NCBI GenBank assembly: GCA_030765455.1
Contig: JAVCCM010000120.1
Span: 1-64,000 of the forward strand
Length of the DNA stretch: 64,000 nucleotides
Reading direction: 5' to 3'
Origin: Candidatus Electryonea clarkiae
GTDB lineage: Bacteria > Electryoneota > Electryoneia > Electryoneales > Electryoneaceae
The notes under the pieces: model-generated
Databases searched by the model: none
What the model was told of the DNA's origin: nothing
The model's input: the letters and a program-made list of their open reading frames with translations, nothing else
Shown: positions 8,972-26,240 of the stretch, piece after piece
Layout of the letters: the number at the start of each line of letters is the position of its first letter
Numbering within the stretch: the stretch's first letter is position 1
Made by a program: the position numbers and the translations under genes

Positions 8972-11900
8972 CTATTTAACAAGAACAATTTTTCTGATTG
9001 CTGCCGTCTTTTGTTCTGTGCTGACTCGTGTGAAATAGATTCCGGCTGCAAGATTACCGGCTTTCCAGGGGATGCGATGATATCCGGCTTCAAGTGTTGG
9101 CGGCTGGAATTTCGTTATTCTGCGACCAAGAATATCAAATATCTCGACATTTATCAAAACCGCCTCAGGCAATGCTACAACTATTGTAATCATCGAATTA
9201 AATGGATTTGGGTAAATCCCTGCAATTTCAAATTTTTCGGGAATTGTGTTTTCCCATGGCGACTCAATATCAGGACGTTCGAGCCAGAATATCCGTGTTG
9301 AATCACTTGAAATTGTATCACCGTTGGAAACAGCATCTACCTGCCAGGCAACCTTAATCGCCCGCATCCACATTGTTAGCTCAAGTGAATCAGGAATATT
9401 GATCCAGTGGAGCGTACTCGTGAGGCTGTCGTAGTCTAAAACCTCTATTGTTGAGTCGTTTATGCTGACTTCAAAATGAACGTTATATGTTACAGAATCG
9501 TCAGCAGGATCAGGATCATCTGAAACTTGCCAGGAGAACATATTTCTATGCGGTATCTGCCAGGGAATGCGAAGACTGTCCACAGGTTCAATCATGTTGA
9601 AAGATGTGGGAGGATCAGGCATGTATGTTTGAAAAACAAATACATTTTCGGAATTGGTTACTCTATCGAATGTATCTGTTGCTTTTACACGCCACCAGTA
9701 GTATTGATTATCAAGTAGATCGCTAATTTCAGTTGTAGTATCTGATCCTGTGATTTGTGCCACTGAATTGATAAATCCCGGATCGGTTGAAATTTCAAAT
9801 AAATATTCTACTGAATCGCGTGATATCTCATCATGTGCTGATTGCCATGTAAATGTAATGTTTGATTCGCCTATCGTATCAGACGATCCTGGGAAAATCA
9901 ACTCGAATGCCCTGGGTGCCTCATAGCTATACATACTGAAAGACCAGGCGTCACCGCCAGAAGCGAACATCCCATCAGTATTAGTATCAACTGCCTTGAT
10001 TTTCCAGAATATCCTGGTAATGTTTTCATTATCGTCCAGTTCTGAGCCGGAGATCGAGGTGTCATTCCCGCGAAGGCGGGAATCCAGAATGTTCAAGGGT
10101 ACAATACTGCTCTCTTTGTGGATTCCCGCCTTCGCGGGAATGACAGTCCCTCTCATACCTGGTTTTGATCCAGTCTGTAGTGCAGGAGCCTCTCCACTCC
10201 AGACGAAGAAAGTATCGATAAGCCCGGAGACGGGATAATTAGGTGTAAACCAGCGATTTTCAGACCAATAGAGTGTATATGTCAGTGCGTCATCAGGGTC
10301 GGGATCTGATGCCTTACCCCATCTTAAAACCGGTTGATCTGTAATCAAAAGAGTATCATTTGACGGTCCGGCGAGCTTAAATGGAAGTGGATTTTCCGCG
10401 ATACGTATAGTGAATTGCCAATCTTCATCAGAAAAAACTTCATTTTCCTGTGGATCGGATGCCGTGACAAACCAGTAATAAGTAATGTCATCATTCCCGG
10501 TGAATGTGTAGAAAGTATCCGTTAAGCCGGTTTCATAAGGATCAAATAAGTTCCGTGGTCCGGTCGCAATGTAAAGGTCATAAGTAATCTCATCGCCCTG
10601 ATCAGGATCGGTAGAAGATTCCCATGTAAGCAGGACTTCCGAGGTATCGATAATTCCATATTCAGGCGGACTTATCAGGTTGAATGCTGAAGGTTCATCT
10701 TCGACATAAATCATGAATCTTCTTGCATCACCCTCAACAGGATTTTCTGAAGAAAGAACACCGTCCGTGTTGGTATCCACAGCTCTGACGTACCAATACA
10801 CAACAGCATCATAGGGTAATTCATCAAGTGAGTTTGAATTTGGATTATTTGGTTCCGGTTTATTAAAGCCAATTTCACTCTTTGATTTAGTCGAGTTGGA
10901 ATTTTCGGTAATTTGATTTAATAAATGACCGGAAATCTTGGACTCTTCTGGTCGTTTACCTGTCTTATTTTGCGAGCCGGCGCCAGTGAATATTTCATCT
11001 AAAGTGAAAGCATAAAAAGTATCAACTATTCCCGTGACAGAATCAGGACTATCGAAATCAGGATCGTTAATTGACCATATCAGGGAATAAGTGATTAAAT
11101 CACCGGGATCAGGATCGCCCGAGGGATGCCAGGTCAGCACAGGATTTATTGAATCAAGCAGTGCGGCATTTACCGGGCTGGCAAGATCGAATTGTTCGGG
11201 TGGATCTGGAATCCTGGCAGTAAAGTTCCAATTAGCAGAGATCCACCTGCCATTGGTGTTGCTGTCTCGAGCCTGAACCCGCCATCTATATTCCCGGTCA
11301 TCAGCCGGTATTTCGAAATAATATTCAGGATTCGCCAGGTGCTCAGTGATATACATCACGGAATCTTCTACCTGAATAATTTCAATAAAATATGTAACAA
11401 CATCTTCCGGATCGGGATCAAATGCTTCTTCCCATGTCAGATGTGCGATTCTTTGATCAACAATTGCTCCACGCAATGGAGTCAATGGTGAAAATCTTGC
11501 TGGAATTTCAGGGAAGTAAGTTGAGAAGGCAAAAGTATCCTGGGACATGGTATAATAACCGGTTTCATCGTGTACTCTTACGGTCCATGCCCAATCTTCA
11601 TCATCCCTGTTAGCGTTGAATATATAGGTAGTATCGGGAAAATTCCTGGCTTTCAGCCTGAATGGTTCACCACCACGGCTGACATATACATCGTATAAAA
11701 GCGCACTTCCCGTATCCGGATCAATCGAATGATTCCAGGCAAGAGTCACCAGGGAATCATCCTCAACTGCTTCATCTTCGGGCATCATCAGCTCAAAAGC
11801 GTTCGGAGGATCGGGAACAGAAACGCTGAACGACCAGACCTCCTGCGGTCCGGCGTACACTCCATCGCTATTACTATCATTTGCGTGAATCCGCCAGAAT

Positions 11901-14900
11901 ATCCTTACATCATCAGGCAGGAGATCGTCCAGTTCACCACCCAGATCATCAAGTTCGCCTAACATTACTTCTTCTTCAAAAATATAAAAGGTGTCGGCTA
12001 AACCGGTGACTGTTATTGAACGGTGTAAGTTTTCATAAAAGGACCATTCGAGATCATAAGTAATTGTATCATCCGGATCAGGATCAATAGTTGATTCCCA
12101 TACAAGGGTAGGGCTGTAACTATTTACTATTGCATTGTCTATCGGTGAGGTCTTGCTGAAAATCAATGGCGGTTGTGGTATATATATTTGAAAAATTCTG
12201 CTCTGATTAGATTCCACGCTGTCATCGGTAATTTCGTCAAGCGCAAACATTTTCCACCAGTATAACGAATCATCCACCATCCATACCTGATCAGAAATAA
12301 CAGGCATCAACTCACCGGAAGAATATGGTCCGAAAATATGATTATTTGTGAAATTATTGTCTTCTGCAATATGGATTGTATATTCTACCGATTGATCCGG
12401 ATCAGGATCTCCGGCTCGCTGCCAATGAAAAGTCATACTTCCGTCGAAGCTGGTATCATTATTGACAGGGGAGATCAAGCCGAAAGGATTCGGCGGGTCC
12501 TGAATTGCTATGCTGAAACTCCAGGAAGTGTCGGGACCTGACCATGTTCCCCCGGTATTCTGATCCACTGCTTTTACATGCCAATATATAGTCACATCAT
12601 CATTCAGGACTTCCTCAGCAAAAGTATATGAAGTATCTGTCAAATCTGTTATGAAAGTTGAGTTTGAAAAAGCTGAATCCAGGGACCATTCCAGCGTGTA
12701 AGAGAGACTATCGTTGGGATCCGGATCAGATGTTGATCTCCATGTAAGCGCAGGAGTCAAACTTTCGAGCTGTTCAGAGTCAACAGGGCTGACCAGTTCA
12801 AAAGTTTGCGGATTTTCCGGGATATAGATCAGGAAAGTCCGAATATCATCCGAAAGGAGGCTGTCGGTATATTCTTCGTCATGCGCCCAGACTGTCCACC
12901 AGTACCTGTGATCGTCAACCATCCAACCTTCATCCAGCGTAATAAATTCATCTTCGCTGAACGGACCGTAAACATGATTCTGTGCAAAATTAATATCTTC
13001 AGTAACATGAAGAGTATAGGTTACTTCCTGCATGGGATCGGGATCGCCGCTATTTTCCCACTCGAATGATACGCTACCATCGAAACTGGTATCATTATCT
13101 GTCGGTTGACTAAGGCCAAAGGCAATAGGCATTTGAGGTACATGTATGTAGAACCGCCATATTTCACTTGATCGAATGCTGGTGTCAAGCGCCGCGTCCT
13201 CAGCCATTACTTTCCAATAATAACTGTGATCGTCCTCCATCCAGAATTCGAACAGGGTCGGAAATTCACCTTCATCATAAGGGCCAAGAATAACTTCACT
13301 TGTGAACTCGCTTGTCTCAGAAACATGTACCCAGTATGTAACACTTTGTCCCTGATCCGGATCGCCGTTGTTTTCCCAGCGGAGATCAACGGAACCGTTC
13401 AAATTGGAATAGCCACCATTATTTGGACTTTCCAGGCTGAACGAGTTTGGAGGTTCTTCTATTGCAATATTCAGCATCCAATATGCATCAGGTCCCGACC
13501 AGGTCCCGTTGGTATTATTATCCTCGGCATGTACGCGCCAGAACAATGTTGTATCGTCCAGGGCATTTGTGATGGAATAACTCTCTGTCGCTAATCCGGT
13601 TATCGTTGCCGGGCTAAGGAAGTCATTAGTCAGGGAATACTCTAATGTATAAGTCACCGCATCGTCCGGGTCAGGATCATTAGATTGTTCCCAGGTCAAA
13701 GTAAAGGGACTTGCAGCAATCGTTGAGCTGTCCGCCGGAGTAAGAAGATCGAAAGCTGAGGGCGGTTCAGCTATGTAAATTGAAAACGAAAGGGTGTCGT
13801 CAGCCCAGGTTCCGCCGGAATTCAAATCTACTGCCTTGATAGTCCAATAGAATAACGGGTCATTATCATTGCCATTGTAGATGAATGAGTTTGACGATAT
13901 CCCTGTTACAAGAGGAGTATCAAGTTGGGCGGCATCGTTAGAAATATAGATATTATATGTAACAGCATCGCCGGGATCAGGATCGGTACTCGTACCCCAA
14001 CTCAACGTTACCTGCTCTGTTCCGGAAACAGTTCCATTTATGGGTGATACAAGTGCGAAAGAACTGGGCGGTTCCGGGATAATGATAGTAAAGTCTCGAG
14101 ATTCATCTGCCCAGATTCCATTTGTATTATCGTCAATCGCTTTAACCGTCCAGTAGTAATGAGTATTGTCGGAACCGGAAAAGGTATAGCTGGTGTCCGT
14201 CAATCCTGTTGCAATGGGATTTCCTAAATCATCAGGATCAGTGGAAACATACAAGTCAAATACCACATCATCGCCGGGATCTGAATCAGTAGTCAACTCC
14301 CATGTTAACACAACATCTGCGGAGAAGGAAATATAATCGGCAACCGGTGATATAAGATTAAATGAATCCGGGGATTCAGGTACTTGAATCCTGAAGCTAT
14401 AATGTCCATTTGACCAGGTTCCCTCGGTGTTTGTATCGACTGCCTTGATACGCCACCAGTACACCGTATCATCAGATCCATTGAAGGTATAGCTTGAATC
14501 CGCTATGCCTGTTGCAACCGGAATGCTAAGGTCGTCCTGATCGGTAGAGATATATACTTCATAAGTGAGAGTATCATCCGGATCGAAATCGAAAGATCTC
14601 ATCCATGATAGAGTAATATCTGTAGATACCGTCATGGTGTCTGAACTGTCAGGGCTTGCAAGCGTGAAGTCAGTTGGTAGTTCCGGGATTGCAATTGAGA
14701 AAGACCATGTGGTATTTGCAAGAGTTCCCCCGGTATTGGTATCAACAGCTCGAACGTTCCAAAAGTACTCAGTGTCGTCCCGTCCCACAAAAGTGTAGGT
14801 TGTATCAGAAAGATTTTCCGCAACCGGATCACCTAAAACCAGTTCATCTTCGGATACATATACCGAATACCGAATCGAATCGCCTGGATCGGGATCGGTG

Positions 14901-17900
14901 GTGGAATTCCAGGTTAGAGACACCCCATTCGTTGAGGAGATGAACCCATCAGCAGGGGCAGCAAGATCGAATGATCCGGGTGTTTCCGGTATATATAAGA
15001 TGAATGATAGAGTGTCATTTGCTAATGTACCGTCTGTATTTGTATCAATCGCTTTAACCGTCCACCAGTATTGAGAATCATCCTCACCTGCAAAAGTGTA
15101 TGTATTAAATGAGACTCCCGTCACAACGGGATCGCCGAAGTTAAGAGAATCAGTTGATACATACACATCATAGGAGATTTCATCACCGGGATCGGGATCG
15201 ACAGGCGCAACCCAGGTAAGTACTACGCTGGATTGATCCAGGACCGTGTTGTGAGGCGGACTGGTCAAAGAAAACGTGTCAGGTTCTTCAGGAATAGCGA
15301 TTGACCAGTTCCAGGTTTCATCTGCCCATGTTTCAAGTAGCCAGGGATCTTTCGCTTTTATAGACCAAAAATATTGTGTATCGTCATTTCCGCTGTATAA
15401 GTAATTGGTGGAAGTCAAACTGACAGCAACCGGGCTGCCGAGATCATCAGGATCAGTCGAAACATAAACATCATAACTGACCAGCTCACCATCATCCGGA
15501 TCAATAGATTCTTCCCAGGAAAGCAGCATCACCGAAACTTCAGAAATTGTTCCGTTATCGGGAGCAGTCAGGGAAAACGCACCGGGTGGATCAGAAACAT
15601 CAAGTTCAAAACTCCATTGTTCATCAGCCCAGGTTCCGTTCGTGTTACCATCTATTGCTTTTACAGACCAGAAATACTCGGTATCATCCAAGCCGGTGAA
15701 TGTATAGTTGGTGTTTGTAACGCCTGTTGCCACTGGATTACCAGGATTGTCCTGATCGGTTGATACGTAAATATCAAATGTAACATTATCGCCGGGATCG
15801 GGATCAATGGATGGTTGCCAGATTAATAGGACATCATAATCAACTGAGATGAAACTGTCTGCTGGTTCTAACAGGCTGAAGGAATTTGGAGGTTCCGGGA
15901 CAGCGATCCTGAAACTCCATGTTTCATCGGCAAAGGTTCCGCTGGTATTAGTATCGATCGCTTTTACAGTCCACCAGTATTGAGTATCGTCAGTCCCGAT
16001 AAAAGTATAGGTAGTATCAGTTAAATCTTGAGCGACAGGATTTCCGAGGTCTCCGATATCTGTTGAGACATAAACATCATAAACAACTGAATCACCAAGG
16101 TCTGTTTCTACCGCTGGTTCCCATTCCAGGTTAACCTGGAGAGTTGTCGAAGTTGCATTGTCTGCAACACTTGTCAGGTTGAACGAACCGGGAGGGTCGG
16201 GAACAATTATAGTAAACATCCTGGTTTCATCAGCCCATGTTGAGGAATCGAATTGATCTACAGCCCTGATTGTCCACCAGTATTCAGTATTATCCAAGCC
16301 GTTGAATGTGATAGAGGTGCCGGTTATATCCTCAGCTACTGGACTACCAAGATTATCCGAATCAGTAGTTACATATATCTCATAAGAAACATCGTCGCCC
16401 GGATCAGGATCAGAAGCATCTTCCCAGCTAAGAGTCACATTCGTTGAAGTTGATATAAAACTATCCGCAGGTGAAGAAAGATTGAATGAGTTAGGCGGTT
16501 CGGGAATAAACAGGGTGAAATCCCATGTTTCATCAGCAAATGTGCCGGTTGTATTTCTATCTACTGCCTTGACTGTCCACCAGTACTGGGTATCATCCGT
16601 ACCGTCAAAGGTGTAGGTTGTGTCTGTCAAATTCGTAGCAACCGGGTTACCCAGGTTGCCCTGATCAGTTGAGACATAAAGGTCATAGGTCAGGGTATCG
16701 GTTGGGTCAGGATCAATCGAAGCTTCCCAGGTTAGGACAACGTCTGTCCCAACCGGAGATGATCCATCATCAGGTAACAACAGTCCGAAAGAACTCGGCG
16801 GTTGCGGTATGTCTATTGCAAAACTCCACTGCTCGGTTGACCATGTTCCGGGAGTGTTTAAGTCTAATGCTCTAATTCGCCAGAAATAAATATTATTGTC
16901 ACTACCGGTAAAATCATAACTTGTGCCTGTGAGACCGGTGGCAATTGCATTTCCTAAATCTAACTCGTCGGTAGATATATACACGTCAAAAGTTATTATA
17001 TCATCCGGATCATCATCAGTGGTTGATTCCCAGGTCAATGTTACATTGGTTATCTCAAAAACACTACTGTCTGCAGGTGTGAGCAGGCTGAATGGATTGG
17101 GCGAATTTGCAACATTGATTTCGAAACTGAATGTTTCAGAAGCCCAGGTTCCATTGGTATTTGTGTCTATTGCCTTTATTGTCCACCAATATTCTGTGTT
17201 GTCAATCCCGTTAAATGTGTAATTGGTAGATGTAACATCAGACGCAACCGGCTCGCCCATATCACCCGAATCAGTTGAGACATAAATCTCATAGGTAACG
17301 TTATCTCCGGGATCAGGATCGGTTGCTGTTTGCCATGATAGATTAACCTCGGTAGAAGACTCTTCGGAACCATCTGCCGGAAAAACCAAGTCAAATGGAT
17401 CAGGCGGATCCGGAACAGCAATAGAAAAGCTCCAGGTCTGGTTTGCCAGGGTGCCTGAAGGAGAATTTGTATCTACTGCCCGGACTGTCCACCAGTACTG
17501 CGTGTCGTCACTTCCTGTATATGTATAAGTAGTGTCGGTTAAACCTGTTACAACAGGTGTACCTAAATCCCCTTCATCAGTGGAAACATATACTGAATAG
17601 ACAATATTATCGCCCGGATCGGGATCGTCTGCTGGACGCCAGGCAAGGGTGACATCAGAATCCGTCATTATTGATTCATCTGCCGGTGATGCAAGATCAA
17701 AAGAATTTGGTGGATCGGCTACATATACGGAAAAACTCCACAAATCATCAGACCATTTGGAAGAATCAAAACTGTCAACAGCGAGAATTCTCCACCAGTA
17801 TTGCGTGTCATCTGATGCATCAAAAATATAGTTGGTTGAAGTAACGTCCGATGCCACCGGCAGCCCCAGGTCGCCCTGATCTGTAGAGACATAGACTTCA

Positions 17901-20900
17901 TAAGTAATGATATCGTCAGGATCGGGATCGGTTGGGGCATTCCAGCTTAAGGTAACCGAAGAGCTTGCCGAAACACTCCCGCTGTCGGGAGCTGTTAAAT
18001 TGAAATCATCAGGTGGCTCAGGTGTATAGATCAAGAAACTGTTCGTGCTGCTTGCCCATGTGCCATTTGTGTTTGTGTCATTTGCTTTGATTGTCCACCA
18101 GTATTCGGTGTCATCTTCTCCCGCGAAAGTATAATTTCTGACAGTTAATCCGGTAGCAATCGCATTACCAAGGTTACCCTCGTTAGTTGACACATACACA
18201 TCATAAGTAACCTCGTCTCCGGGATCAGGATCAATTGCTTCAGCCCAGGTCAGGGTTACATCTTCGACGGATGAAACTGCTTCATCGGCGGGTAGCAGCA
18301 AATTAAAATCGTTAGGAGGATCATAGATATATACAGTGAAAGATCGTCCCTGGAATGGAGTCGCGACAGTATTCTGTTGAAATACGTTTGTTGCGACTAT
18401 CTGCCAATATGTTCTCTGATCATCGGGTAATCCTTGACCATCCAATCCACTTAAGATAAAAGTTGTATCGAGGGTATTTTCTGTTAATGCATTATTAAAG
18501 AATGGATTATCCGCCCATGCAACTGTGTATAAAATTGTCTGTGGGAAAAATGAAATTGAAAGCTCGTTATCAAGATACTCTTCATCAAAAATTACCTGTA
18601 GTCCATCGTTTTCATTATGGTTTTCGATTCCGGCTGTACAGGAATTCAGTGTTCCGGTTAGACTGTTGTACTGGAATACTATAAATCCTTCTTCATGTAA
18701 AATAACCTCAAAAGTGTAAACAGAAGTGGGATCACCGAATCGCCTTACACCATCCCATTGAACGATAAATTGATCACCTGCATCCCGATAGTAAATGTCG
18801 CCCTGCAAATTAGGCTGAAGCGCATCCCAGAAGGGAGCAATCATTGCTGCAGGACCATCAAAGGCAGGTATATTGGAATTAGTGAAATCTGAATTAGGCG
18901 TACCAAAATGAATGTTTCCATTACTGGAAATTGTAACGCTGTTATATTGATTACCGTAATAAGAAAATTGCCAGGGTAGATCGACGGTTTCAGTGCTGTT
19001 GGCATTATCTGAGGTAGTGGAACGAGTGCCTGTCCCGGAAATCTCTACCCAGTCATATTCAGCGCCACCCGGTTCATTGCTGCTTATCCAATAATAACCG
19101 AAATTGTCCGGACCATGCACTTGAAGCCCGTTATCAAGGTTCGGGTCTTCCGGTTCAGTCCAGGCAAGACCAATGAAGTCCTCATGAATCAGGGTATCAT
19201 CTTCCGCATAAACAAGATTGAATTGACCTGGAGCTACAGGGAAGAATGCATGTACTCGCCATGTCTCGTCCGACCATGTTCCTTCTGTATTGTTATCCTG
19301 GGCACGCACTTTCCACCAGTATGATTGAGCATGTTCCAGCGCTACCAGCTCAAAAGTGGTATCTGCCACAAACGCTGAATCGACATCGAATCCAAAATCG
19401 GGGTCTGTTGACCACCATACGTGATAACCCACTATTCCATCACCAGGATCATCATCTGAGGTTGATTCCCAGACTAATGTCGTATCGCCATCAAAGGTGA
19501 AAGAACGATCCTGTGGCGAAAGAAGGCTGAAAGGTAGGGGTGGATCAGGCCGGAAAGACTCAAAAGAGAATGCAAAGTTATCAAATGGATTTCGCGATGA
19601 GAGTACGCTGTTGCCAAAGGAATCCTCGGCGCGGACATACCAGTAAATGGTTTCATCATCCGGTATTACACCTTCAGGGAATTCGTAGGTAGTTTCTTCG
19701 ACTCCCGTGACAGAATCCGGATTATTAAAATTAGCGTCATCAATCGAATAATAGATTGTATATGTAATTGTGTCACCCGGATCCGGATCAGGCGCTGCTT
19801 CCCAGATCATTGTCGGGGTTAAAGTGCCGATAAGCGTAGCGTCCATTGGTTCAAGCAAATCGAAAGTAGTCGGCGGTTCCGGGATATATATATCGAAAGG
19901 CCATACCTGATCTGCCCAGGTACCTATATTTGAAGTATTGTCCATCGCGTGGATAGTCCAGTAATAGGTACTGTCATCATCACCGGTGAATAGGTGTGTA
20001 GTATCCTCATGATCCATGTTCGTCGCTATCGGATCTCCAAGATTATCCGGATCTGTAGATACAAATATTGAATAATCAATCGAGTCATGCGGATCGGGGT
20101 CAAATGATTGGAACCATGTCAGTAATACATCCGCAATCGGGGAAACTTCCAAGCTGTCCGGAGAGGCTAAACTGAATGCTGACGGTGGAGGATAGAATTC
20201 TACTGCCAGGTCATTCTCAAGATAATTAGTGTTATAAACAACTTGAAGCCCAACTGTCTCCTCCTGGTTTTCTATTCCCACCGTACAGGAGCTGAGATTA
20301 CCATCCACCGAATTATATTGGAACAGAATCCTGTCGTCAGGATAAAGAATCAATTGGAAAGTCAAGCGGCTGACAATATCATTAAATCTTCGAACAGCAT
20401 TCCACTGGACGATAAAACGATTTTCATTCCCATGATAATAAATAGTACCGCCTGTTGCGGGATTAAGATCATCCCAAAGTGGGGCAATAATAGCCGGAGG
20501 ACCAAGATCATTTGGGATAGGTGAATTGCCTGAGTCACGCTCGGTATCACCGAAATGAACGTTTCCGTTTGTGCTTATCCAGACATTGGTGTAGGCAGTA
20601 CCGTAATAATTAAATACCCAGGGAAGAGTTATAAAAATTGTTGCATCATCATCGTCAGAAATGTCCGATCTGACTCCAATTGCCAGGATATCCTGCCAAT
20701 TATATTCCGGACCTTCATCTTCATTCGAATCACGCCAGATATATCCCAATTCATCAGGTCCGCCCGCGTCGTCAAGCTCGTCCGGACCTGCCCCACCCCC
20801 ATCCCACCGGTTGTCACCTTTTGCGGGAGACGTTCTCAGGGTAAACCTTTCGTGGGTCATAACTCCTTCCTGTGCTGATAACGCGCTGGAAAGGCAGCAG

Positions 20901-20941
20901 CCCAGAATAATCAGGGATATATATATGTAATTTAGCTTCAT
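8972..20941 (-). CDS. giant T9SS-secreted protein, 3989 aa, about 32 FN3-like repeats
   Basis: The signal peptide (MKLNYIYISLIILGCCLSSALSAQ) is followed at residues 45-255 by a nidogen-like beta-sandwich (YNWQDILAIG, WISTNGNVHFG, IAPLWDDLNP, FIVQWNAVRRF, NSVDGNLSSCTVGIEN). About 32 repeats of some 95 residues follow, each with PPxxFxLxxPxD, then LxWxxxxDPDPGDxxxY, VYVSTD and YWWTVKAxDTNTxGTWAD. They look like fibronectin-III-type sandwiches, and the acidic DPDPGD turn may bind Ca2+ (inference). A second nidogen-like domain (about 605-800) sits inside repeat 4. Residues 3900-3989 form the Por sorting tail (YPNPFNSMI, EIFDILGRRI, AAGIYFTRV, KIVLVK). Repeats 25, 28 and 30 carry extra segments in one loop; that in repeat 30 is a translated palindromic repeat. 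Probably a long surface fibre or adhesin. The frame is open throughout. Confidence 0.9.
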   Translation of the reverse strand: MKLNYIYISLIILGCCLSSALSAQEGVMTHERFTLRTSPAKGDNRWDGGGAGPDELDDAGGPDELGYIWRDSNEDEGPEYNWQDILAIGVRSDISDDDDATIFITLPWVFNYYGTAYTNVWISTNGNVHFGDTERDSGNSPIPNDLGPPAIIAPLWDDLNPATGGTIYYHGNENRFIVQWNAVRRFNDIVSRLTFQLILYPDDRILFQYNSVDGNLSSCTVGIENQEETVGLQVVYNTNYLENDLAVEFYPPPSAFSLASPDSLEVSPIADVLLTWFQSFDPDPHDSIDYSIFVSTDPDNLGDPIATNMDHEDTTHLFTGDDDSTYYWTIHAMDNTSNIGTWADQVWPFDIYIPEPPTTFDLLEPMDATLIGTLTPTMIWEAAPDPDPGDTITYTIYYSIDDANFNNPDSVTGVEETTYEFPEGVIPDDETIYWYVRAEDSFGNSVLSSRNPFDNFAFSFESFRPDPPLPFSLLSPQDRSFTFDGDTTLVWESTSDDDPGDGIVGYHVWWSTDPDFGFDVDSAFVADTTFELVALEHAQSYWWKVRAQDNNTEGTWSDETWRVHAFFPVAPGQFNLVYAEDDTLIHEDFIGLAWTEPEDPNLDNGLQVHGPDNFGYYWISSNEPGGAEYDWVEISGTGTRSTTSDNANSTETVDLPWQFSYYGNQYNSVTISSNGNIHFGTPNSDFTNSNIPAFDGPAAMIAPFWDALQPNLQGDIYYRDAGDQFIVQWDGVRRFGDPTSVYTFEVILHEEGFIVFQYNSLTGTLNSCTAGIENHNENDGLQVIFDEEYLDNELSISFFPQTILYTVAWADNPFFNNALTENTLDTTFILSGLDGQGLPDDQRTYWQIVATNVFQQNTVATPFQGRSFTVYIYDPPNDFNLLLPADEAVSSVEDVTLTWAEAIDPDPGDEVTYDVYVSTNEGNLGNAIATGLTVRNYTFAGEDDTEYWWTIKANDTNTNGTWASSTNSFLIYTPEPPDDFNLTAPDSGSVSASSSVTLSWNAPTDPDPDDIITYEVYVSTDQGDLGLPVASDVTSTNYIFDASDDTQYWWRILAVDSFDSSKWSDDLWSFSVYVADPPNSFDLASPADESIMTDSDVTLAWRPADDPDPGDNIVYSVYVSTDEGDLGTPVVTGLTDTTYTYTGSDDTQYWWTVRAVDTNSPSGTLANQTWSFSIAVPDPPDPFDLVFPADGSEESSTEVNLSWQTATDPDPGDNVTYEIYVSTDSGDMGEPVASDVTSTNYTFNGIDNTEYWWTIKAIDTNTNGTWASETFSFEINVANSPNPFSLLTPADSSVFEITNVTLTWESTTDDDPDDIITFDVYISTDELDLGNAIATGLTGTSYDFTGSDNNIYFWRIRALDLNTPGTWSTEQWSFAIDIPQPPSSFGLLLPDDGSSPVGTDVVLTWEASIDPDPTDTLTYDLYVSTDQGNLGNPVATNLTDTTYTFDGTDDTQYWWTVKAVDRNTTGTFADETWDFTLFIPEPPNSFNLSSPADSFISTSTNVTLSWEDASDPDPGDDVSYEIYVTTDSDNLGSPVAEDITGTSITFNGLDNTEYWWTIRAVDQFDSSTWADETRMFTIIVPDPPGSFNLTSVADNATSTTLQVNLEWEPAVETDLGDSVVYDVYVSTDIGDLGNPVAQDLTDTTYTFIGTDDTQYWWTVKAIDTNTSGTFADETWSFRIAVPEPPNSFSLLEPADSFISVDYDVLLIWQPSIDPDPGDNVTFDIYVSTDQDNPGNPVATGVTNTNYTFTGLDDTEYFWSVKAIDGNTNGTWADEQWSFELDVSDPPGAFSLTAPDNGTISEVSVMLLSWEESIDPDDGELVSYDVYVSTDPDDLGSPVAVSLTSTNYLYSGNDDTQYFWSIKAKDPWLLETWADETWNWSIAIPEEPDTFSLTSPPHNTVLDQSSVVLTWVAPVDPDPGDEISYDVYVSTDSLNFGDPVVTGVSFNTYTFAGEDDSQYWWTVKAIDTNTDGTLANDTLSFILYIPETPGSFDLAAPADGFISSTNGVSLTWNSTTDPDPGDSIRYSVYVSEDELVLGDPVAENLSDTTYTFVGRDDTEYFWNVRAVDTNTGGTLANTTWSFSIAIPELPTDFTLASPDSSDTMTVSTDITLSWMRSFDFDPDDTLTYEVYISTDQDDLSIPVATGIADSSYTFNGSDDTVYWWRIKAVDTNTEGTWSNGHYSFRIQVPESPDSFNLISPVADYISFSADVVLTWELTTDSDPGDDVVFDLYVSTDPDDLGNPIATGLTDTSYTFSGSDNTHYYWTVKAIDDNTNGIWADESRDFTIIIPEPPSSFALVSPINGTVSGTEQVTLSWGTSTDPDPGDAVTYNIYISNDAAQLDTPLVTGISSNSFIYNGNDNDPLFYWTIKAVDLNSGGTWADDTLSFSIYIAEPPSAFDLLTPADSSTIAASPFTLTWEQSNDPDPDDAVTYTLEYSLTNDFLSPATITGLATESYSITNALDDTTLFWRVHAEDNNTNGTWSGPDAYWMLNIAIEEPPNSFSLESPNNGGYSNLNGSVDLRWENNGDPDQGQSVTYWVHVSETSEFTSEVILGPYDEGEFPTLFEFWMEDDHSYYWKVMAEDAALDTSIRSSEIWRFYIHVPQMPIAFGLSQPTDNDTSFDGSVSFEWENSGDPDPMQEVTYTLHVTEDINFAQNHVYGPFSEDEFITLDEGWMVDDHRYWWTVWAHDEEYTDSLLSDDIRTFLIYIPENPQTFELVSPVDSEQLESLTPALTWRSTSDPDPNDSLSYTLEWSLDSAFSNSTFITDLTDTSYTFAEEVLNDDVTIYWHVKAVDQNTGGTWSGPDTSWSFSIAIQDPPNPFGLISPVNNDTSFDGSMTFHWQRAGDPDPDQSVEYTIHIAEDNNFTNNHIFGPYSSGELMPVISDQVWMVDDSLYWWKMFALDEITDDSVESNQSRIFQIYIPQPPLIFSKTSPIDNAIVNSYSPTLVWESTIDPDPDDTITYDLEWSFYENLHRSITVTGLADTFYIFEEEVMLGELDDLGGELDDLLPDDVRIFWRIHANDSNSDGVYAGPQEVWSFSVSVPDPPNAFELMMPEDEAVEDDSLVTLAWNHSIDPDTGSALLYDVYVSRGGEPFRLKARNFPDTTYIFNANRDDEDWAWTVRVHDETGYYTMSQDTFAFSTYFPEIPARFSPLTPLRGAIVDQRIAHLTWEEAFDPDPEDVVTYFIEIIQVEDSVMYITEHLANPEYYFEIPADDREYRWRVQARDSNTNGRWISANWNFTARIPDPPEQFDLASPVNAALLDSINPVLTWHPSGDPDPGDLITYSLIWSINDPDFDSPDSVTGIVDTFYAFTLDEIFTGAGSQNKTGKRPEESKISGHLLNQITENSNSTKSKSEIGFNKPEPNNPNSNSLDELPYDAVVYWYVRAVDTNTDGVLSSENPVEGDARRFMIYVEDEPSAFNLISPPEYGIIDTSEVLLTWESSTDPDQGDEITYDLYIATGPRNLFDPYETGLTDTFYTFTGNDDITYYWFVTASDPQENEVFSDEDWQFTIRIAENPLPFKLAGPSNDTLLITDQPVLRWGKASDPDPDDALTYTLYWSENRWFTPNYPVSGLIDTFFVWSGEAPALQTGSKPGMRGTVIPAKAGIHKESSIVPLNILDSRLRGNDTSISGSELDDNENITRIFWKIKAVDTNTDGMFASGGDAWSFSMYSYEAPRAFELIFPGSSDTIGESNITFTWQSAHDEISRDSVEYLFEISTDPGFINSVAQITGSDTTTEISDLLDNQYYWWRVKATDTFDRVTNSENVFVFQTYMPDPPTSFNMIEPVDSLRIPWQIPHRNMFSWQVSDDPDPADDSVTYNVHFEVSINDSTIEVLDYDSLTSTLHWINIPDSLELTMWMRAIKVAWQVDAVSNGDTISSDSTRIFWLERPDIESPWENTIPEKFEIAGIYPNPFNSMITIVVALPEAVLINVEIFDILGRRITKFQPPTLEAGYHRIPWKAGNLAAGIYFTRVSTEQKTAAIRKIVLVK
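10060..10145. repeat. REP-like inverted pair inserted in the giant coding sequence
   Basis: Two perfect 27-base arms (10060-10086 and 10119-10145; core GTCATTCCCGCGAAGG) face each other around a 32-base spacer. Each arm itself contains the palindrome TTCCCGC/GCGGGAA. On the coding strand they are translated in frame as VIPAKAGIH ... LDSRLRGND, giant-protein residues about 3600-3628. The same 27 bases recur at 63974-64000, outside any gene, so this is a dispersed element. As RNA it can form a stem-loop of about 27 bp inside the mRNA. Confidence 0.9.
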
Positions 20942-21569: not shown

Positions 21570-22263
21570 ATGGCTTTATCACAACTTGTTGTAGTGGTTG
21601 AAGATGATGAAAGTATTATTGAGCTTCTTGAATACAATCTGTTACGAGAGGGGTTTCGGGTTGAATGTGTACGAACCGGTGAAGAGGCATTGAGTTCAAT
21701 AAAGAATCTACAGCCTGACCTTGTTCTTCTTGACTTGATGCTGCCGGGAATGAACGGGCTCGCGGTGTGCAACAATCTGAAAAAGCATAATGCTACCGAG
21801 AATATCCCAATCATTATGGTTACTGCAATGGATGATGAAGCAGATATTATTAAGGGCTTGGAGCTTGGAGCAGATGATTATATTACTAAACCTTTCAGTA
21901 TTAAAGTCCTTATAGCACGGGTTCGCGCTTTGCTTCGGCGATCTGAGGAATCTTTGATAGGAGAACATGACATACTCTCAATCGAAGAAATCTTGATCCA
22001 TCCGGGGAAAAGGCAGGTGATGGTTAATGAAATGCAGATATTTTTTAACAAAAACAGAGTTTGGATTATTACATTTTCTTGCACGTCGTCCAGGTTGGGT
22101 GTTTACCCGTTATCAAATTGTGGATGCTGTTCACGATGAAAATTACCAGATCACTGATCGCGCAGTGGATGTTCAGATCGTCGGTTTGCGAAAAAAGCTC
22201 GGACAATATGGTAATTACATAGAAACAGTGCGTGGTGTTGGTTATCGGTTTAAGGAGTATTAA
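21570..22263 (+). CDS. phoB: PhoB-type response regulator, reading frame interrupted by one base
   Basis: This is a phosphate-regulon transcription factor. Receiver domain: acidic pair Asp12/Asp13, phosphoacceptor Asp55 in LVLLDLMLPG, and TKPF for the conserved Lys. The winged-helix output domain continues in another frame: LTKTEFGLLHFLARRPGWVFTR, DRAVDVQIVGLRKKLG, ETVRGVGYRF. The switch falls at a T6 run (22041-22046). Removing one T restores a single frame of about 231 codons, the normal PhoB length. As given, the first frame ends at 22139, about 35 residues past the shift. Causes could be an assembly error in a homopolymer, a real mutation, or slippage. It overlaps phoR by one base (TAATG) and has a putative Pho box upstream. 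Confidence 0.85.
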
Positions 22264-24040: not shown

Positions 24041-24064
24041 CCTTTGATCAAGTTTGATCAAAGG
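24041..24064. terminator. palindrome between convergent phoR and fic
   Basis: A perfect 11-bp inverted repeat (CCTTTGATCAA with its complement, 2-base centre) covers the stop codon of fic and lies just after that of phoR. No long T run follows on either strand, so it may act as a weak bidirectional terminator or only protect 3' ends. Confidence 0.45.
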
Positions 24065-25565
24065 TGGAATGAATCACATGTTCCATCATTACAAGCTCAT
24101 CATCAGATAAAAAGTCGAAATGGCTCAGCCGTTTTTTTGCAGATAGCTTGCTATTATTTTGCACACAGAGCCTAATGAACAGGTCGATCTTATGATCAGG
24201 CATATCGATAATCTCCTGAAGCGCCATTTTCGTTTCATCATATTTGTCGAGGAACTCTAATTCATTGACAAGTTCAGTATCTATGGCTTGTTCAATGAAC
24301 CAGCAGAGAGCTTCTGCCTGGGGAGTCATATCGATAAAGCGATACCATTGGACAGAATCGTTATGCACAATCATCTTGCCTACTTCATCGAGCGAGTAGT
24401 CAACCAGGGAGATAATGTCCCTGGAGAACTTCTCAAGAGATGTGTCATACTCATGAAGGTTATTCAGCATTGAAGCTGATATCGGCAGCATAATCTCCGG
24501 GTTTGTGAAGCCTTGCCGGGCTAAGATATTATGTATCAGGAAACGATGAATTCTTCCATTCCCATCCTCGAATGGGTGTAGAAACACAAATCCATAAGCA
24601 ATAGCAGCCGCATGTATTACCGGTGAAATCCCGCCATTTTCCATACGTTCATGGGCTGTGACAAGCCCTTCCATGAGCGCTGCAATATCATCAGGCTTTG
24701 GGCATACATAGTGAATCATTTCATTCTGCCATGTAACCGTCTCGCCGACATAGTTCTGCGATGTTCGATAATCGGATTCACGAAACCGTGGATCGACAAT
24801 GCGATTTTGAAGTTCAATAAACCGGCTTTTGTTACAGAAATCCTCTTTTTCTGCCAGGTGAAGCAGCGCTACGAATCGTTCCGTACGACTCGAACTGGGT
24901 TTAACCTGTTCTATCTCAAATGAAGATTTTGTCTCTTTCGTGTAGAGGTAACTCAACGCTCGTTTCAATTGTTGCATTGAATAATCTGATATTACCTGCT
25001 GAACTCGTTTGGGAAGGTCAGCCTTTTCAAATCGATCAAGTCTTTCCGTTCGGCGAATAATCGGGCAAAAAGCACGGTCACCTAACAAGTTATCATTGAC
25101 ACAATAACGTTGGATTTTGTGAGTAGGATTAATAGTATAGTAATGGTTTGGATCGAGGACATCGACATACTTGAGCTTCTTCAAATCGTCAATAGGCAGT
25201 ATATTCTCCGTGAGCAACTCATACAAGAACCAAACCCGTCTCGCGTACATTCCTGTCGGTTTTGACTTGATATAATCCAGAACCTCCGTTTCTGTAACTG
25301 TCTTAAATAGAGCTGATAGTATCTCAAGATTCACGCCGTCGTATTTAAGTGCAAATTCCAGGTGATCACCGAAGTTTTCCCCAGGCCAATATTTAGATGG
25401 ATAGACCTCTTCAACTACTCCGCCAGTCGTGTTGATCCGGTGAGTTCCGCTGGCTGCCACCATGGAGCTGTGCCAGTTCGGAATAACATCAAGCTCGTAC
25501 CGGCTGATTAATTCTGCGTAACCAACAGGCTTGAGATTCGAGTTTTCACTGCTATTTTCAAACAT
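24048..25565 (-). CDS. Fic-domain protein (probable AMP transferase)
   Basis: About 505 residues from the ATG at 25565, preceded by AGAGGA; a TTG start at 25616 would add 17 residues. The complete Fic motif HPFEDGNGRIHR (residues 330-341) contains the catalytic His and the phosphate-binding GNGR. Such enzymes move AMP, or sometimes another phosphate-containing group, onto a hydroxyl of a target protein. SFEIEQ (about 215-220) may be a degenerate form of the inhibitory helix motif (S/T)xxxE(G/N), with Gln in the last place. The N- and C-terminal parts are unassigned. No antitoxin-like partner lies beside it. It sits alone and convergent inside the phosphate regulon, with an array of 50-bp repeats upstream. 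Targets unknown. Confidence 0.88.
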   Translation of the reverse strand: MFENSSENSNLKPVGYAELISRYELDVIPNWHSSMVAASGTHRINTTGGVVEEVYPSKYWPGENFGDHLEFALKYDGVNLEILSALFKTVTETEVLDYIKSKPTGMYARRVWFLYELLTENILPIDDLKKLKYVDVLDPNHYYTINPTHKIQRYCVNDNLLGDRAFCPIIRRTERLDRFEKADLPKRVQQVISDYSMQQLKRALSYLYTKETKSSFEIEQVKPSSSRTERFVALLHLAEKEDFCNKSRFIELQNRIVDPRFRESDYRTSQNYVGETVTWQNEMIHYVCPKPDDIAALMEGLVTAHERMENGGISPVIHAAAIAYGFVFLHPFEDGNGRIHRFLIHNILARQGFTNPEIMLPISASMLNNLHEYDTSLEKFSRDIISLVDYSLDEVGKMIVHNDSVQWYRFIDMTPQAEALCWFIEQAIDTELVNELEFLDKYDETKMALQEIIDMPDHKIDLFIRLCVQNNSKLSAKKRLSHFDFLSDDELVMMEHVIHSTFDQT

Positions 25566-25621
25566 GGCGTCCTCTGGAAAATGGTTACTTTTGAGTATTA
25601 TTTCTATCTTTTGCAAAAATC

Positions 25622-25969
25622 AAGAAAACCATTTCGGCGCAAGAATATTATTTGCAAAATACAATGTTTCGAGAAAAACGATTGCAGCACGAGAATTATA
25701 ATTGCAAAACGTAAGTTTTCGAGAAAAATGATTGCTGTTGCAGACTTTAATTATTTTTTTAAGAAAAATCAACTAAAAATGATTGTGTTAAAAGATTTTT
25801 TTGTATAACACAAATTATTGAGAATAGCGATTTCGGCGCAAGATTTTTGATTGCAAATTAGAAGTTTTCGAGAATAACGCCTGTGCTGCGAGAATTCTAT
25901 TTGCAAAACACAAGTTTATGAGAAAAACGATTACTTGGCTCCTCGAAATTGCTGAATTATTCCACTTAG
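25622..25969. repeat. array of about seven degenerate 50-bp tandem repeats
   Basis: Units begin at 25622, 25671, 25721, 25771, 25820, 25870 and 25920, a constant 49-50-base period. The best-kept units (2, 5, 6) start GAGAAAAACGATT or close to it, have a middle such as CGGCGCAAGAAT, and end near TTTGCAAAACACAAG. Units 3 and 4 are the most diverged, and only the first 14 bases of unit 7 match. Whole units repeat with no unique spacers, so this is not CRISPR. The period is not a multiple of three, so it does not encode a protein repeat. It covers the region upstream of fic (minus) and ends about 225 bases before the pstS Pho box. I see nothing else in 25970-26192. Confidence 0.8.
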
Positions 25970-26192: not shown

Positions 26193-26240
26193 CTAACATT
26201 ACGCTAACAATTCCCCTCTAACATTGCCGTGAAATACAAG
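26193..26240 (+). promoter_or_regulatory. putative Pho box and promoter of pstS
   Basis: CTAACATT (26193), CTAACAAT (26204) and CTAACATT (26218) form a direct-repeat trio with 11- and 14-base spacing. They are followed by an AT-rich AAATACAAG (about 26232-26240) at the right distance for a -10 element. This matches the repeat set upstream of phoB. PhoB activation of pstS under phosphate limitation is the expected role. Confidence 0.55.

Follow-up and report, generated by a model that had tools for sequence, protein, structure and literature searches.

An array of direct sites with conserved 20/30-bp spacing upstream of PDC-S24 fic genes, a putative operator

The window, a 64,000-nucleotide stretch of contig JAVCCM010000120.1 from Candidatus Electryonea clarkiae, encodes a Fic protein on its minus strand, preceded by an array of short repeated sites (Table 1). 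The start of fic was best placed at the ATG at 25565, with AGAGG just before it, which bears out the intergenic position upstream of fic given to the repeats in the initial annotation. The protein matched the PADLOC model of PDC-S24 (PDLC04966) over its full length (residues 12-504 of 505 against model positions 5-491 of 497) with 593 bits (E = 1e-178), whereas the model of SoFic, a 361-aa family, reached only 82 bits, confined to the Fic core, and the NCBIfam SoFic model 28 bits against a cut-off of 550. Judged by these profile scores, the window Fic is a member of PDC-S24, not of SoFic. PDC-S24 is a single-gene candidate phage-defence system in PADLOC, its defence role being a prediction only.

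Pfam recognised the Fic domain alone in this protein, with no HTH and no match in the preceding 245 residues. Residues S215 and E219 were invariant in the family alignment, most members reading S[FY]xIEG at this position and the window Fic SFEIEQ. The auto-inhibitory motif of class II Fic proteins is [S/T]xxxE[G/N]; as aligned, the reading of the family fits this motif and that of the window resembles it. The AlphaFold model of the whole protein was confident (pLDDT 85) and ended in three C-terminal helices, and the N-terminal domain modelled alone reached pLDDT 89. A PDB sequence search with this domain gave no match; its best solved structural neighbour was Rv2827c, a weak likeness that was not significant (E = 0.027), with AbiEi lower still (E = 0.34). 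AbiEi and Rv2827c are antitoxins that act as DNA-binding autoregulators, but their partner toxin gene is absent at the window locus.

Two further observations concern other genes of the window. The reading frame of a phoB-like response regulator (21570-22263, plus strand) is broken near 22030 into two overlapping parts, which could reflect a frameshift or, alternatively, misassembly of a T/A run. A 3989-aa protein (8972-20941, minus strand) with many fibronectin-like repeats and a sorting-domain-like C-terminus holds an in-frame ‘VIPAKAGIH...LDSRLRGND’ segment that resembles the translation of a dispersed repeat element.

The tandem repeat upstream of fic, described initially as seven units at a constant 49-50-base interval, is real: identity at lag 50 over 25600-25950 was 0.512. 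The corresponding figure for 2000 dinucleotide shuffles was 0.287 (sd 0.027), and no lag took a shuffle above 0.43. TRF and a repeat search concurred on a periodicity of ~50 bp. Identity was higher still at lags 149 (0.53) and 199 (0.645), owing to a single 1-bp deletion mid-array. Four units, at 25627, 25677, 25826 and 25876, were well kept (64-78% match), and the two middle units were decayed (38-46% by ungapped count), in keeping with the earlier view that the middle was worst preserved; the outermost units were partial, and the supposed seventh matched over its first ~12 bases only. The constant interval itself gave way to a finer structure. Within each 50-bp unit one ~13-bp site occurs twice, once in a strong and once in a weaker form, and the true functional period is an alternation of 30 and 20 bp, not 50 bp. 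All of these sites are direct and lie in the orientation of fic (minus strand), the best being AATCGTTTTTCTCG. The extent first given, 25622-25969, also required revision at both ends, as the chain of sites runs from 25932, where the repeat stops at the fic-distal end, down to 25573, in the fic ribosome-binding region. Of the two sequences named as best-kept ends, GAGAAAAACGATT was correctly chosen, being the strong site read on the opposite strand and, as an array, unique to this locus, but TTTGCAAAACACAAG is an inter-site linker, common to the units of the window and not kept in relatives. A scan for sigma-70 promoters and terminators found no excess over shuffles.

Table 1 The fic gene, the sites of its upstream array and neighbouring features, in window coordinates.
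Feature	Position	Strand	Sequence or remark
fic, 505 aa, PDC-S24 family	24048-25565	-	Fic motif HPFEDGNGRIHR, intact
AGAGG, fic ribosome-binding sequence	25571-25575	-	5 bases ahead of the ATG
Site array	25573-25932	-	direct sites of ~13-14 bp, alternating 30/20-bp steps, oriented with fic
Last site	25573-25586	-	AACCATTTTCCAGA; overlaps the fic ribosome-binding sequence
Weak site, doubtful	25592-25605	-	AGAAATAATACTCA; 6/14
Strong-register site	25621-25634	-	AAATGGTTTTCTTG
Weaker site	25640-25653	-	AAATAATATTCTTG
Best site	25670-25683	-	AATCGTTTTTCTCG
Weaker-register site	25690-25703	-	AATTATAATTCTCG
Strong site	25720-25733	-	AATCATTTTTCTCG
Decayed middle of the array	25739-25802	-	worst units of the initial annotation; site register only roughly kept
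Strong-register site	25819-25832	-	AATCGCTATTCTCA
Weaker site	25839-25852	-	AATCAAAAATCTTG
Strong-register site	25869-25882	-	AGGCGTTATTCTCG
Weaker site	25889-25902	-	AAATAGAATTCTCG
Strong site	25919-25932	-	AATCGTTTTTCTCA; 13/14 to the best site
Three CTAACA, 11- and 14-bp steps	26193-26223	+	35 bp before pstS; separate from the array

The array recurs upstream of related genes. In another genus of the same family (G004), the Fic is 64% identical and adjoins an aldehyde dehydrogenase gene rather than phoR and pstS; its upstream region could not be aligned as a 50-bp repeat, yet holds TTTTCTCG words 30 and 20 bp apart. In another phylum (G044, Fic 35%), TTTCGACC words were spaced at 30, 20, 24, 30 and 20 bp. 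An alignment-based scan of species genomes recovered ~25 further full-length relatives in many phyla, most of which carry a row upstream of fic, for example TAATCGTTTTTCA or TAACTGTTTTTCAC. The letters of the sites vary by lineage, and the 20/29-30/49-50 spacing and the orientation shared with fic are kept. Eight full-length relatives were found on viral contigs and none in known phage records, whilst 14 annotated plasmid loci had unrelated neighbours and no constant partner gene. Across loci, the neighbours included restriction genes, DUF3644, integrases, toxin-antitoxin genes and metabolic genes. On one viral contig (L160, 1-5272), the open-reading frames place fic and its array between predicted terminase and portal genes, which suggests a phage-carried cargo gene. 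At two other loci (L152, 2295-2643; L116, 1-4464), PDC-S24 genes adjoin YoeB-type toxin-antitoxin and type I restriction genes, settings which, as judged from gene content, are like defence islands.

The spacing was conserved well beyond chance. Autocorrelation over the fic upstream regions of 42 relatives peaked at lags 50, 20 and 30 (summed z 9.4, 8.3 and 8.0), whereas flanking stretches and the fic coding region showed autocorrelation at multiples of three instead. A motif-free chain model placed (20,30) top of 296 spacing pairs (10.64 against a mean of 6.79, sd 0.56). Each upstream region was also scored against dinucleotide-shuffled versions of itself, and p < 0.02 was reached by 31 of the 43 from PDC-S24 genes but by 3 of the 41 from other Fic genes (Mann-Whitney p = 2e-11); no array was detected by this test in some PDC-S24 members (L061, L115, L121 and L164). 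With the test fixed beforehand, 11 of 12 held-out plasmid loci gave p <= 0.05, with (20,29) and (20,30) ranking 1 and 2 of the 296 pairs, as did 7 of 8 viral-contig loci, two of them being near-identical (18/20 for the held-out loci together). Pooled p-values are optimistic, because the relatives share ancestry and are not statistically independent; the per-sequence tests and held-out sets are independent of pooling. Distances between TTTC[AGT] words in 54 upstreams told the same story, with 40 pairs at 20 bp, 42 at 29-30 and 55 at 49-50, and no more than 5 pairs at any other distance, the 49-50-bp period following from the 20- and 29-30-bp steps. TTTTTCA occurred 63 times in the fic direction and 3 times on the other strand of these 54 upstreams. 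The decay of the middle units had been attributed to age plus some selection on the rest, which fits, the selection acting on a 20/30-bp arrangement of sites that is kept in different phyla.

In the genomes searched, the pattern is also nearly specific to its gene. In the window's own genome the three-site pattern was found only in this fic array, and searches for the repeat unit elsewhere (BLAST and a short pattern) returned single scattered 13-mers and no second array. Seven relatives' genomes were searched for three spaced TTTTCA words, which gave 12 matches. Five of these had 29-30/20 steps: the four known fic arrays and a new one (G067), which revealed a second PDC-S24 gene, not suspected before, downstream of it. 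The two PDC-S24 paralogues of this cell (L049 and L136) have sites which differ in their 5' half-site, starting GCGNGTA in the first and TAATCA/TAATCG in the second; the second paralogue (L136, 1500-3056) stands beside an IS30-like transposase remnant in the Flavobacteriaceae MAG that also holds L049. Similarity between sites tracked similarity between Fic proteins (Mantel r = 0.47, p = 0.0005), a correlation to which shared descent of the upstream DNA could contribute. The array accompanies the PDC-S24 gene across phyla and replicons, and is nearly absent elsewhere in the genomes searched.

Several readings of the repeat are unsupported. It is neither a CRISPR nor a coding repeat, as was recognised from the outset: the repeats are diverged, the intervals are themselves partly repeated and alternate between 20 and 30 bp, and the frame is not coding. 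Replication iterons, one of three options then offered, lose ground as no initiator gene adjoins the array; in the window it is accompanied by fic, phoR and pstS, and its surroundings vary elsewhere. A structured non-coding RNA, another, finds no support in folding (z 0.15 and -0.08 against shuffles on the two strands) or in Rfam, where there was no match. An inverted-repeat operator of the CccR type is at odds with the direct sites of the family. The remaining option, arrays of regulator sites, is supported by the conserved spacing and the linkage to PDC-S24.

Such an array of turn-like spacing, single orientation and gene-dependent letters, ending at the translation start, is what would be expected of an operator on which protein is lined up in a row. 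We consider it reasonably likely that it is the operator array of the stand-alone fic, the binder probably being Fic itself. The putative operator would comprise the sites, about two and three helical turns apart, that lie between ~370 bp upstream and the ribosome-binding site; a protein could bind them cooperatively as a head-to-tail row, and the bound row would then shut or tune fic transcription. Fic is the most likely binder, since fic is the only gene constantly found with the array and the paralogues differ in their letters. Were this so, fic would be self-limited, and derepressed once the protein leaves the DNA, for example during phage attack. We infer the binder, the sign of the regulation and any phage-sensing role alike, and direct repeats, which are unusual for a symmetric dimer, count against an operator bound by Fic. 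An extended version, which we regard as speculative and rather improbable, would make the array the platform on which a one-gene defence senses phage: the row of Fic on its sites would silence both gene and enzyme until an invading phage disturbed this nucleoprotein, whether by degrading it, through competing DNA or by a DNA-binding protein of its own, whereupon active, AMPylating Fic and new transcription would be released together.

The array might instead control fic whilst being bound by a host protein, such as a nucleoid protein or phage-response regulator. Fic has no DNA-binding domain recognised by Pfam and the TTTT-rich core is found in many hosts, both of which suit this reading; we nevertheless hold it to be unlikely, although not negligible, since the pattern occurs essentially only at PDC-S24 genes in the genomes searched, the hosts of these genes span many phyla, and the paralogues L049 and L136 present different half-sites within one genome. 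An RNA-level role for the fic leader may also be envisaged, in which single-stranded motifs in the mRNA are bound by Fic or another protein to control translation, and the sites do point with fic and reach its ribosome-binding site or first codons. Spacings near whole helical turns speak for double-stranded DNA, and the leader folds no better than shuffles and has no Rfam match, which makes this account improbable.

The gene is mobile, being found on plasmids and viral contigs and, at some loci, beside integrase or transposase genes. This would agree with the sites belonging to a mobile element that carries fic, as its end or its recombination array, or with their being replication iterons. 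We judge this very improbable, as there is no constant rep or transposase gene among the loci, the array is always 5' of fic with its last site at the gene start, and it is also found on chromosomes and within a phage structural operon. Least credible, and barely so, is a locally expanded repeat with no function, or a set of PhoB sites belonging to the phosphate regulon, in which the array had first been placed. The linkers of the window are alike and thus point to some recent 50-bp duplication, but the spacing is kept where letters differ, and the comparative data contradict an array without function. The link to PhoB was dropped because relatives keep the array beside other neighbours, as in G004, where the spacing is maintained beside an unrelated gene; in addition the array steps by 20/30 bp and not by the 11 bp of a PhoB box, and pstS has its own separate CTAACA repeat, whose arrangement is Pho-box-like and likely represents a Pho box.

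A precedent for a Fic protein as its own repressor is CccR of Yersinia pseudotuberculosis, a Fic protein with a C-terminal HTH, which binds its own promoter and represses its own gene (PMC9755527). Self-repression is predicted here, with the array confined to the fic promoter region. The CccR operator consists of two inverted 10-bp boxes 26 bp apart, whereas the window array has many direct sites at 20/30 bp, and the 505-aa window Fic has a different N-terminal domain. In CbFic2 of Coxiella, which is structurally similar to the window Fic over ~365 columns, DNA binding alters the activity of the Fic enzyme, and arbitrary DNA sequences were bound with high affinity; the portions of that report available to us describe no operator array (PMC10628234), whereas the window fic has a putative one. 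SoFic is likewise a stand-alone AMPylating Fic tied to phage defence, with a similar Fic core, and no site array is reported in the parts of its literature covered here. Upstream of a SoFic-like gene of 379 aa in a Rhodobacteraceae MAG (L082, 1650-2050) lies a 70-bp tandem repeat, close to perfect and with internal similarity at 30 and 40 bp, so arrays may also exist in further families of solo Fic.

The PDC-S24 model covers the protein alone. In the openly available journal literature searched, PDC-S24 was not mentioned and had no noncoding site array described for it, and word searches returned no report of repeats upstream of Fic genes. Operator arrays are known as a kind, and one linked to PDC-S24 across phyla appears new. 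A candidate one-gene defence family thus carries a conserved noncoding partner to which family models and lists of genes are blind. A DNA signature for finding further members is offered by sites spaced at 20/29-30 bp ahead of a Fic gene, and a spacing kept over deep divergence, whilst the letters change with the gene, is usable for working out a site-recognition code. The array offers direct access to the means by which a solo Fic that may be toxic is silenced, and to what wakes it.
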